From contig CAMLRI010000022.1 in assembly GCA_946482385.1 (NCBI GenBank), forward strand, positions 1-11,426: a DNA stretch of 11,426 bases, read 5' to 3'. The notes beneath the pieces are model-generated. The model was given only the letters and a program-made list of their open reading frames with translations, searched no databases and was not told the DNA's origin. Made by a program: the position numbers and the translations under genes. Position 1 is the stretch's first letter, and each line of letters starts with the position of its first letter. The DNA is from an uncultured Cellvibrio sp. GTDB taxonomy: Bacteria; Pseudomonadota; Gammaproteobacteria; Pseudomonadales; Cellvibrionaceae. Positions 7,379 to 9,877 of this stretch are shown in pieces.

Positions 7379-7672
7379 ATGACGACCAGTCATAGCGAAT
7401 TGTTGCAGTTAAAAAATCTTGGCATGGCATCGGTAAATATTTTGCGTGCTATAGGCATAAACACCTATGCAGACCTGAAGCGTACAGGGGCGGTGGAAGC
7501 CTATAGGCGTATCAAAGCGCGCAACATCAACGTTTCAAAAGTTATGCTCTATGCACTCCAGGGGGCACTGCTTGACGTGCACTGGAATGACCTGGCGCCC
7601 GACCTTAAGCGCCAACTGGTACTGGATGCCGAGCAGGAACCAGACACAGATTTGGATCGCGCTTCCGCCTAA
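7379..7672 (+). CDS. TfoX C-terminal domain-containing protein
   Basis: The 97 residues are almost entirely one TfoX C-terminal domain (PF04994-like), a helical helix-hairpin-helix-related fold. LKNLGMASVNILRAIGI (11-27) followed by YADLKRTGAVEAYRRIKA (30-47) and MLYALQGALLDVHWNDL (56-72) are the diagnostic segments. In full-length TfoX/Sxy, which switch on competence genes together with CRP, this domain follows an N-terminal domain that is missing here. Free-standing versions are common and their role is not settled. The start is supported by AAGGAG (7364-7369) 9 bases before ATG. The acidic C-terminal tail (84-97) is outside the domain. It is probably transcribed alone, with a hairpin downstream. 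The next gene also encodes a protein with CRP-type domains, which is suggestive given the TfoX-CRP link, but no functional tie can be shown. Confidence 0.88.
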   Translation: MTTSHSELLQLKNLGMASVNILRAIGINTYADLKRTGAVEAYRRIKARNINVSKVMLYALQGALLDVHWNDLAPDLKRQLVLDAEQEPDTDLDRASA

Positions 7673-7736: not shown

Positions 7737-7859
7737 ACTGCGCAGAACGCGTGAGTGCGCACAGAATTTTACGCGACAGCGGCTACACTCTAACTATTCT
7801 TGCGCCCCCATGGATCGGCCGGCATTCATATCCCTGTATCCACCGCCATTGAGGAGCCT

Positions 7860-8645
7860 ATGCATTTACCATCCAAAGAATCCGCCACCCTCAGCGACCT
7901 GGCCGCCAAGCTCTACGGCTTGAGCGAACTCTTGTGCAGCGACCTGCCCCCCGCCACCCAGGTGCACCTGGCACCCGACAGCGACCTGCTCGGCGAGCTG
8001 CCCACCACCCAAATACTGCGCCTGCGCGAGGGCCAGGCGGATTACTACCTGAACGGCAAACTGATTATGCATTGCGACAGCGGCGACCTGCTCGGCCTGC
8101 CGCGCAGCCTCAACCTGCCCAGTGGTGAATGGCGCAGCAGCACCAGCCTAGTGGCCGATGTGTACGAGCGGGACACCCTGGTGAACCATATCCACAGCGA
8201 TAGCAAGCGCCAGCGCCACTGGGCACACTACCTGCTGTGCATGCAGAGTTTTTATGAGCAGGCCCTGGCCCAGGAACTGCGCCGCCCCTTCCAACCCTCC
8301 GCCGGCTTTTTGCACTACCAGGCAGGGGAAACCATTATCCAGCAGGGCGACACCGCCGACCGGGTCTACACCCTGCTAGAGGGCAGTGCCGACGCCCTGC
8401 GCGATGGTGTCAAAGTGGGCGAGGTTCACCCCCAGGAGATCTTTGGCGCCCTGGCGGTATTTACCCGCCAACCGCGCATGGCATCGGTGGTTGCCACCAG
8501 CGATTGCACCCTGCTGGCGGTGCGCAAAGAGGAATTTATCGAGCTGATTGACCACCAACCCCAGGTTTGCCTGGGACTGATCGAAGAGATGGCCGCCAAA
8601 ATCAACCAGCTCAATGGCCAGCTGCGCGACCTTAAAAACGAATAG
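7860..8645 (+). CDS. Cyclic nucleotide-binding-domain protein without DNA-binding domain
   Basis: This encodes 261 residues. The C-terminal half (about 147-235) is a CAP-type effector-binding beta-roll: FLHYQAGETIIQQGDTADRVYTLLEG, then PQEIFGALAVFTRQPRMASVVA (191-212), which aligns with the phosphate-binding cassette and keeps Glu193, Arg206 and Ser209. The usual Gly before the Glu is Gln192, so nucleotide binding is possible but uncertain. Residues 51-111 look like a second, degenerate copy of the same fold (LRLREGQADYYLNGKLI, CDSGDLLGLPRS, SLVADVYERDTLVNHI). No helix-turn-helix follows; the protein ends in a short helical, likely coiled-coil tail (235-261). So it is not a CRP-like transcription factor but a sensor or adaptor that must act through a partner. 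The ATG at 7860 has GAGGAG just upstream; a TTG at 7800 extends the frame but has no support. The gene is preceded by 187 bases of spacer. Confidence 0.85.
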   Translation: MHLPSKESATLSDLAAKLYGLSELLCSDLPPATQVHLAPDSDLLGELPTTQILRLREGQADYYLNGKLIMHCDSGDLLGLPRSLNLPSGEWRSSTSLVADVYERDTLVNHIHSDSKRQRHWAHYLLCMQSFYEQALAQELRRPFQPSAGFLHYQAGETIIQQGDTADRVYTLLEGSADALRDGVKVGEVHPQEIFGALAVFTRQPRMASVVATSDCTLLAVRKEEFIELIDHQPQVCLGLIEEMAAKINQLNGQLRDLKNE

Positions 8646-8667: not shown

Positions 8668-8696
8668 TTGCAAACACAAATGATAGTCATTATCAT
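8668..8696 (+). promoter_or_regulatory. Sigma-70 promoter under the Fur box
   Basis: TTGCAA (8668-8673), exactly 17 bases, then TATCAT (8691-8696): a strong match to the sigma-70 consensus with ideal spacing. Transcription should start near A8703. No open reading frame of any size starts in the following 150 bases, so the product is expected to be an RNA. Confidence 0.65.
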
Positions 8697-8697
8697 T
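8679..8697. promoter_or_regulatory. Fur box
   Basis: AATGATAGTCATTATCATT is a 9-1-9 inverted repeat with a single mismatch. Its core TGATAGTCATTATCA matches the Fur 7-1-7 consensus (TGATAATCATTATCA) at 14 of 15 bases. It covers the -10 box and the spacer of the promoter at 8668-8696, the standard position for repression by Fe-Fur. Confidence 0.85.
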
Positions 8698-8702
8698 AAT
8701 TC

Positions 8703-8841
8703 AACTGCTGCATCTTTCTCCTCGCGGCAGTTGCACTGGATCGATTAACCTCCTGCAAGTCGTTAATGGTTTCAGTGGGGCGCCAGTTGTTGGCGCCCGG
8801 CTAACACGGTTGCTTGGGCCGCCCCTGTGGCGGCCATTTTT
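8703..8841 (+). ncRNA. Candidate Fur-repressed small RNA, about 140 nt
   Basis: The span starts about 7 bases after a TATCAT box that is covered by a Fur site and ends at a rho-independent terminator. It contains no credible reading frame. The 5' end folds at once: 8702-8711 pairs with 8724-8733 (10 pairs, one G-U), leaving a 12-base pyrimidine-rich loop with CUUUCUCCUC. A mostly unpaired stretch (8734-8777) follows, with ACCUCCUGC and UCGUUAAUGG. A perfect 8-bp hairpin (8778-8785 with 8791-8798) and the terminator hairpin (8817-8835) come next. Both C-rich segments could pair with ribosome-binding sites. This is the design of RyhB/PrrF-type iron-sparing RNAs, which are made when iron is low and silence mRNAs of iron-using proteins. 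I infer the analogy from arrangement and cannot claim sequence homology. Confidence 0.65.
8817..8841 (+). terminator. Rho-independent terminator of the candidate small RNA
   Basis: GGCCGCC (8817-8823) and GGCGGCC (8829-8835) form a perfect 7-bp stem with a 5-base loop, followed by A and five T (8837-8841). It lies 146 bases before the first possible htpX start codon and 172 bases after the stop of the cyclic-nucleotide-domain gene, so it ends a transcript that starts in between or reads through from that gene. Confidence 0.8.
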
Positions 8842-8882
8842 CCTCCCCCGCCCCAGCTTCACCCCATGCCTTTCACCCAGTC

Positions 8883-8907
8883 TTAACGCCTCTTAACACG
8901 GCTTAGC
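8883..8907. promoter_or_regulatory. 10-bp phased direct repeats, CpxR-box-like
   Basis: TTAAC (8883-8887), TTAAC (8893-8897) and TTAGC (8903-8907) repeat with a period of exactly 10 bases. On the - strand the first two read GTTAA-N5-GTTAA, one change per half from the CpxR consensus GTAAA-N5-GTAAA. They end 11 bases upstream of the -35 box proposed for htpX, a usual activator position. E. coli htpX is known to be under CpxR control; control here is inferred. Confidence 0.4.
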
Positions 8908-8918
8908 CCAGCGCACGA

Positions 8919-8946
8919 TTGAAATTTTTACGCGGCGCACACATAT
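8919..8946 (+). promoter_or_regulatory. Candidate sigma-32 (heat-shock) promoter for htpX
   Basis: TTGAAA (8919-8924), 14 bases, then ACACATAT (8939-8946), which fits the sigma-32 pattern TTGAAA-N13/14-CCCCATNT except for two bases of the C run. A sigma-70 reading (TATACT at 8944-8949) would need a 19-base spacer, which is long. E. coli htpX is heat-induced, so a sigma-32 promoter is expected; the match alone is moderate. Confidence 0.4.
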
Positions 8947-8988
8947 ACTGCGCAAAGCTGCGTATAAGCAGTAACCTCAAACCTCTAT

Positions 8989-8993
8989 GGGAG
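8989..8993 (+). promoter_or_regulatory. Shine-Dalgarno site that fixes the htpX start at GTG 9002
   Basis: GGGAG lies 8 bases before GTG 9002. It overlaps the in-frame ATG at 8987, which itself has no ribosome site upstream (TAACCTCAAACCTCT). The ATG is thus part of the ribosome site, not the start. Confidence 0.75.
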
Positions 8994-9001
8994 ACTTTAT
9001 C

Positions 9002-9877
9002 GTGTTACGCATTGGCCTGTTTTTGCTCACTAACCTCGCGGTATTACTGGTGGCTGGTGTAGTGCTTAACTTACTGGGTGTTGGCACACACCACACGCCC
9101 GGCGGCCTCAACCTGACCAACCTGCTGATCTATTGTGCTGTTTTCGGTTTTGTCGGCTCGTTTATCTCCCTGTTTTTATCCAAGTGGATGGCGAAAAAAA
9201 CCATGGGTGTGCAGCTGATTGAACAGCCGCGCAATGCCGACGAGCAGTGGCTGGTCAACACAGTAGTAGAGCTATCGCAAAAAGCCGGTATTAAAACCCC
9301 GGAAATCGGCGTGTTTGCCGCCCAGGAATCCAACGCCTTTGCCACCGGCTGGAACCGCAATGCCGCCCTGGTGGCCGTTAGCCTCGGCCTGTTGCAGCGC
9401 TTTGAGCGGGATGAAGTGAAAGCCGTACTGGCCCACGAAATCGGCCATGTCGCCAATGGCGATATGATCACCCTGAGCCTGATCCAGGGTGTGGTGAACA
9501 CCTTTGTGATGTTCTTCGCCCGCATCATCGGCGACCTGGTTGACCGGGTGCTGCTGAAAAACGAAAACGGCCGCGGCATGGCCTATTACGCCACCACCTT
9601 TGTCGCCGAGATGGTGCTGGGTATTCTTGCCTCGATGATTGTCGCCGCCTTCTCGCGCTACCGCGAATACCGCGCCGACCACGCCGGTGCCACCCTGGCC
9701 GATCGCGGCGCCATGATCCGCGCCCTGCAGCGTTTGCAGGCGGAAATGAACGCCGGTGTAGAAAGCCCACTGCCGAGTAGCATGCGCGCCTTTGGTATCA
9801 GCGGCGGTATGCGCAACCTGTTTGCCAGCCACCCGCCCCTGGAAGCCCGTATCCAGGCCCTGCGCGATAACGCCTAA
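9002..9877 (+). CDS. htpX: HtpX, inner-membrane zinc metalloprotease (M48B)
   Basis: HtpX cleaves misfolded or damaged inner-membrane proteins from the cytoplasmic side and works alongside FtsH. From the GTG start the product has 291 residues (E. coli 293) and begins (M)[16 protein letters not shown], aligning with E. coli [15 protein letters not shown] from the first residue. Two N-terminal membrane helices (about 3-26 and 40-60) are followed by the conserved EQPRN segment (74-78). The zinc site HEIGH (145-149) lies in [15 protein letters not shown], and the third ligand is Glu222 in [12 protein letters not shown]. Two more hydrophobic stretches flank 155-175 and 195-216. [14 protein letters not shown] near the C-terminus is the family's usual end. 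Preceded by candidate CpxR and sigma-32 signals, and followed after 14 bases by an HtrA-type protease gene, with which it is probably co-transcribed. Confidence 0.96.

Follow-up and report, generated by a model that had tools for sequence, protein, structure and literature searches.

In the 11,426-nucleotide stretch of DNA analysed here (the window), we identified a putative small RNA locus at 8703-8841 that is very probably a Fur-repressed, trans-acting prrF orthologue. The RNA would spare iron by silencing sodB in the first place, and likely fumA and sdhC, through a linker sequence. When iron is plentiful, Fe-Fur sitting on the -10 element would keep the small RNA silent, and when iron falls, the RNA would be made and would end at an intrinsic terminator. 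Its single-stranded linker CACGGUUG, probably with help from the CU-rich hairpin-1 loop, is then predicted to pair with iron-enzyme mRNAs (sodB first and likely fumA and sdhC) at their ribosome-binding regions, whereupon translation would be blocked and the mRNAs sent to decay. PrrF RNAs depend on Hfq, and the RNA described here would presumably use it as well; the same targets are expected in the window's own genome, the sites themselves having been read in the genomes of relatives. The promoter, the Fur box, the conserved RNA, its homology and common position with PrrF and the conserved complementary sites in relatives are all established by sequence, and a PrrF-like function is the most likely one.

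The first-pass annotation placed a 14/15 Fur box on a sigma-70 promoter with the arrangement TTGCAA-17-TATCAT, and both elements are indeed present (Table 1). The promoter match is the sole one between 8000 and 9500, where 0.8 would be expected, and by itself is no better than chance; its weight comes from conservation in relatives, all 26 of which carry TTGAC or TTGCA 16-18 bases ahead of a -10-like element, a spacing that was also the search pattern. The Fur box has one mismatch and is the only site with three or fewer in the 11.4 kb window, such sites occurring at a mean of 0.14 per shuffled window (one or more in 24 of 200 shuffles); under a laxer scoring it reaches 14, and sites elsewhere in the window reach at most 11. 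In 26 of 27 sequences (the window and 26 relatives), the promoter region contains the single highest-scoring Fur-box-like site of its locus, the exception being L033. In 13 of the 26 relatives (L009-L015, L019-L023 and L035), this best site is of the TAAGAATATTTCTCA type and is located upstream of the -35 element, 56-59 bases before the inferred start, and a weaker site can be read on the -10 element. No upstream Fur-box-like site of the TAAGAATATTTCTCA type was seen in the window, where the site sits on the -10 element.

No long reading frame follows the promoter, as had been claimed, and the transcript contains just overlapping frames of 20-53 codons. The predicted fold of the 139-nt transcript has an energy of -62.8 kcal/mol (z = -4.35; none of 200 shuffles as low), and the corresponding z-values of three relatives are -3.77 (L024) and, less clearly, -2.22 (L003) and -1.74 (L001). 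This fold includes the hairpin that the same annotation had proposed for the 5' end. Other hairpins occupy the place of hairpin 3 in relatives, and in PrrF loci that score over the Rfam threshold (hereafter, over-threshold loci) no hairpin separates the CU-rich seed from the linker. The terminator, found about 140 bases on as proposed, has seven G-C pairs, all invariant in eight sequences, but its run of five T, compared with seven in the Pseudomonas-type loci read, makes the epithet 'textbook' slightly generous.

Table 1. Features of the small RNA locus and its neighbouring genes in the window.
Feature	Coordinates	Strand	Basis or remark
TfoX C-terminal-domain gene (tfoX)	7379..7672	+	second syntenic neighbour, upstream
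Cyclic-nucleotide-binding-domain (CNB) protein gene	7800..8645	+	syntenic counterpart of the gene that precedes over-threshold prrF loci
Sigma-70-like promoter	8668..8696	+	sequence match; -35 TTGCAA 8668-8673, 17-bp spacer, -10 TATCAT 8691-8696
Fur box TGATAGTCATTATCA	8681..8695	+	14/15, N counted; overlaps the -10 element
Predicted small RNA, ~139 nt	8703..8841	+	both ends deduced from the promoter and the terminator; model R1 92.2 bits over 8704-8845
Hairpin 1	8703..8732	+	predicted fold and alignment; loop holds TTTCTCCT at 8715-8722
Hairpin 2	8734..8777	+	predicted fold; loop CCTGCAAGTC at 8752-8761, invariant throughout alignment A2 (8 sequences)
Hairpin 3, GGGCGCCA-GTTGT-TGGCGCCC	8778..8798	+	predicted fold
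Linker CGGCTAACACGGTTGCTTG	8798..8816	+	proposed seed CACGGTTG at 8805-8812
Intrinsic terminator	8817..8841	+	stem 8817-8835, 7 G-C pairs, then ATTTTT
htpX, downstream neighbour	8987..9877	+	identity also by NCBIfam

Fur box, loop and terminator, the conservation of which in related genomes had been proposed as a check, are all kept in relatives. In alignment A2 (8 sequences), 95.8% of the cells are paired and 12 of 42 pairs changed on both sides; neither value was reached in any of 500 shuffles, and slid versions of the structure were at most 52.6% paired. Because the structure was derived from A2 itself and the terminator stem never varies, this pairing supports chiefly hairpins 1 and 2. The alignment combines variable stems with an invariant hairpin-2 loop and an invariant block that runs from the linker into the terminator. 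A homologous element was read in 41 of 144 family genomes, of which 26 contributed to the training of model R1 and 15 were found by it (E <= 0.01). R1 was built from 26 family sequences and contained neither the window nor promoters nor any over-threshold PrrF; RNAalifold yielded just 12 pairs on these sequences, and R1 is thus mostly a sequence model. It matched the window with 92.2 bits (E 1e-23, a rough value like all R1 E-values) and recovered, at E <= 0.01, all 15 of the loci L042-L056 and all 17 of the over-threshold PrrF loci. Tandem PrrF-like RNAs were observed in G125 (three copies; L042, 883-1644) and in G393 (five copies; L097, 933-2213).

Rfam searches at threshold found nothing in the window. 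The best lax match of the stretch is PrrF (RF00444), which covers the full length of the RNA at 27.5 bits (E 0.0094) against a gathering threshold of 90, so that Rfam annotation misses the small RNA and the gene may have gone unannotated, as had been suspected. The comparison with the two Rfam models recommended earlier was accordingly split: the PrrF model matches over the whole length, albeit far below threshold, and the RyhB match (RF00057) is not meaningful. Membership in RyhB was rejected, as the match reached 16.3 bits (E 2) against a threshold of 55, covered the 3' end only and revealed no homology.

Among relatives, the PrrF model matches the element in four of six other loci (E <= 0.5) and, elsewhere in the family, in another 15 of 19 loci. 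Across the family, 74 of 144 genomes yielded an RF00444 match at E <= 0.1, with the best at 78.8 bits and none of the 144 reaching the threshold, but this is not a count of PrrF genes, given that it includes a different element at five loci and weaker matches that were not read. Across the order, 61 of 390 genomes had a match at E <= 0.01 and 17 exceeded the cut-off (best, 163 bits), the scores showing a step between 84 and 127 bits and no smooth ramp. Intermediate-scoring family loci keep TTGAC or TTGCA, the Fur box, the 5' hairpin, GGCTAAYCACGGTT or GGCTAACACGGTT and the terminator, and often the CUUCUCCU motif.

The different element (L063, L065, L069, L070 and L071, ~1450-1680) is a conserved sRNA-like sequence with a 5' hairpin and with CACGGG and TTTTCTCTCATCATCGC before a strong terminator, scoring 35-38 bits with RF00444. 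It has TGGCAY-N5-TTGC, which we take to be sigma-54-like; no Fur box was seen by eye, and R1 found none of the five loci. These loci were not counted as PrrF genes and possibly represent a separate, unnamed sRNA family.

Furthermore, the window locus shares its position with prrF. A CNB match (33-38% identical) lies directly upstream of 12 of the 17 over-threshold PrrF loci (L077-L088), and tfoX accompanies 11 of the 17; the remaining five (L072-L076) are without CNB and tfoX, and each comes from a genome with two PrrF matches. CbpA (PA4704) is a cAMP-binding protein. PA4704 bears the name cbpA (PMC6147739), and prrF1 and prrF2 of P. aeruginosa are PA4704.1 and PA4704.2 (PMC6954232, PMC5870498). 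From the shared tfoX-CNB position and this numbering, the window locus is best read as the prrF locus itself. The first-pass remark that the RNA is found next to no iron gene is correct for the window, but the position is that of prrF, since bona fide PrrF loci likewise have tfoX and CNB upstream. The small RNA is a non-member by the Rfam criterion, but its position, promoter, linker and target sites, together with the reciprocal model matches, make it to all appearances a diverged, remodelled prrF orthologue, and the PrrF-type arrangement of a Fur-controlled small RNA that had been put forward gains support from these comparisons.

Known PrrF RNAs are Fur-repressed, are made at low iron and lower the expression of iron enzymes (PMC2851614, PMC7948967, PMC8534726, PMC7377471). 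The window RNA resembles the members of RF00444 (P. aeruginosa prrF1/prrF2, Azotobacter ArrF) in that its promoter carries a Fur box, its 5' end folds into a hairpin, the GGCUAA(U)CACGGUU linker immediately precedes the terminator, genes for TfoX and CNB proteins are located upstream and iron-enzyme targets are predicted; its linker seed CACGGTTG equals PrrF GGCUAAUCACGGUU minus one base (GGCUAA-CACGGUU). In contrast to PrrF, it lacks the contiguous UAUCUCCUCAUCA(G/A)GCUAAUCACGG that is present in all 17 over-threshold loci, carries extra hairpins between the blocks and the CU-rich motif in hairpin 1 instead, and occurs as one copy at this locus, with htpX downstream.

An independent, convergent RyhB-like RNA with no homology to PrrF would explain the score far under the Rfam threshold and the differing hairpins between the shared blocks, and Burkholderia BrrF, an analogue without sequence similarity, provides a precedent (PMC7377471). 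This reading is disfavoured, and we consider it very unlikely in view of the shared linker at the same place before the terminator, the graded RF00444 scores with reciprocal R1 matches and the tfoX-CNB position held in common with PrrF loci. That source describes BrrF of Burkholderia cenocepacia as a low-iron RNA with predicted and regulated targets including sodB, fumA and sdhC, in which it resembles the window RNA, but as having neither its own Fur box nor any resemblance to known Fur RNAs, whereas the window RNA possesses such a box and is PrrF-like. It also describes the logic of RyhB, a Fur-repressed RNA that lowers iron-enzyme mRNAs (PMC7377471), and the window RNA is predicted to follow the logic of E. 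coli RyhB in this respect.

Downstream of the small RNA locus, the window encodes a trypsin-PDZ protease and htpX. A search with the CNB protein retrieved eight loci (six titled Cellvibrio, a gammaproteobacterial MAG and a Marinimicrobium locus), and the homologous element is present in the CNB-htpX interval of seven, namely, the six titled Cellvibrio and the MAG; the Marinimicrobium locus L008 contains htpX and lacks the RNA element, as judged from reading the interval and from model R1, which did not find it. Of the 19 A3 family loci tested, all contain htpX and 17 contain CNB, and the family loci L042-L056 have tfoX in 15 of 15, htpX in seven and CNB in two. A search for plasmid copies of the region gave no match. 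In G034 (L034, ~1480-1545), CNB and htpX are kept and just a degraded linker-terminator remnant lies between them, an apparent natural loss of the RNA body; other copies in this genome were looked for by the two family-wide searches alone.

The position of htpX as the next gene downstream on the same strand, retained in all the A3 loci tested, could be taken to indicate that the Fur box and promoter serve htpX, with 8703-8986 forming a long leader, the terminator being read through and the protease gene responding to iron. We regard this as highly improbable, considering the strong, invariant terminator, the lack of an htpX match in any of 12 over-threshold CNB-upstream PrrF loci (~1.5 kb downstream examined), the presence of htpX without the RNA in Marinimicrobium and the ATTGAAATTT..CACACATAT-like block ahead of htpX in Cellvibrio loci, which has a changed form in L008. 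In the window, this block (ATTGAAATTT...CGCACACATATA, 8918-8950) is one that we take to resemble a sigma-32-type promoter, and htpX would thus have its own start.

As to the targets of the predicted prrF orthologue, the sodB leaders of all 12 Cellvibrio-type genomes contain CAACCGTG shortly before AGGAGA, complementary to the linker CACGGTTG, and relatives also have sites complementary to the linker at the starts of sdhC and fumA. ACCGTG was found within -50..+25 of the start in 23 of 25 sodB, 26 of 26 sdhC, 24 of 25 fumA and 3 of 12 acnB genes, compared with 7 of 201 control starts; contiguous complementarity was adopted as the measure after the poor result for whole-linker energy was known, and the genomes and control starts are not phylogenetically independent. 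By whole-linker duplex energy, the sodB median falls at the 14th percentile of controls and sodB is not singled out, and energies below the 5th percentile (114 controls) were obtained for 1 of 25 sodB, 15 of 26 sdhC, 21 of 25 fumA and 1 of 12 acnB genes. These comparisons exclude sodB of G023 (no start found), fumA of G007 (partial gene) and acnB of 14 of the 26 genomes (all 12 Cellvibrio-type, G046 and G049), for which the start pattern or gene search came back empty; the sodB paralogue of G022 was swapped for its MAFELP copy.

An unbiased scan of 12 genomes for AACCGTG..AGGA..ATG returned 47 matches, compared with 19 for the reversed pattern, and the sodB site alone occurs in 12 of 12, at least three other strings each being seen, by eye, in two genomes. 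The sdhC match spans 6 nt in 11 of the 12 Cellvibrio-type genomes, and the fumA site lies within codons and may be kept for the protein. In addition, several relatives have AGGAGAAA in the Shine-Dalgarno region of sodB, the complement of TTTCTCCT in the hairpin-1 loop, and these sequences may pair.

We further compared sodB leaders (-40..+3) with the complements of both PrrF seeds, the over-threshold genomes being represented by 16 Fe-type leaders from 16 of the 17 genomes (11 distinct, several identical; other SOD paralogues excluded). The CU-rich seed 13-mer, with up to two mismatches, was found in 11 of these 16 leaders (one exact), 1 of 241 control starts and none of 12 Cellvibrio-type leaders, which have 5-7 mismatches. 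Conversely, the linker seed 8-mer was found exactly in all 12 Cellvibrio-type leaders, 3 of 13 from the rest of the family, none of the 16 and 1 of 241 controls. The median longest contiguous match to the linker is 9 in Cellvibrio-type, 8 in other family and 5 in over-threshold leaders; the corresponding medians for the CU-rich seed (7, 7 and 7.5) do not separate the groups because this seed includes the Shine-Dalgarno sequence. Thus, the sodB leaders of relatives match the linker, not the CU-rich seed as in PrrF, and the over-threshold genomes appear to use the UCUCCUCAUCAGG seed on sodB, judging from these matches. In all 17 over-threshold loci, the CU-rich seed and the linker form one uninterrupted stretch; the seed is split off by inserted hairpins in non-Cellvibrio family sequences and is missing from that place in Cellvibrio-type ones. 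It is possible, although we would stop just short of calling it probable, that Cellvibrio prrF lost the contiguous UCUCCUCAUCAGG seed, moved the CU-rich motif into a hairpin loop and gained hairpins, with the sodB leader re-paired with the linker seed. If so, the regulator and the target would have been kept and the contact between them replaced.

The hairpin-2 loop CCTGCAAGTC also occurs in many further family sequences (differing at the last base in L023) and was not seen in the Pseudomonas-type PrrF sequences inspected; it may serve as a second seed or bind a protein. In a target scan with the CCUGCAAGUC loop, for which the reversed control was not composition-matched, no leader among the matches listed recurs in all genomes. 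A silent conserved relic, or an RNA with a main job other than iron sparing, such as protein binding via the CCUGCAAGUC loop, could accommodate the invariance of this loop in the eight A2 sequences with no target assigned to it and the seeming loss of the RNA body in G034, yet is very improbable given the joint retention of promoter, Fur box, linker and terminator and the matching sites kept at iron-enzyme start regions.

Among the matches listed from the open-licence literature, no title or abstract reports a PrrF-like RNA in Cellvibrio, and a term search of the GLASSgo paper found neither PrrF nor Cellvibrio named. The prrF reading of the window locus would add Cellvibrio and its relatives, in which Rfam annotation is blind, to the bacteria with a PrrF iron-sparing system. 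Orthologues scoring from less than 30 to more than 160 bits at one conserved position would allow a test of how the contact between a small RNA and its target changes as the circuit is kept, and the RNA is a concrete candidate for the regulator that adjusts central metabolism to iron in Cellvibrio and its relatives.
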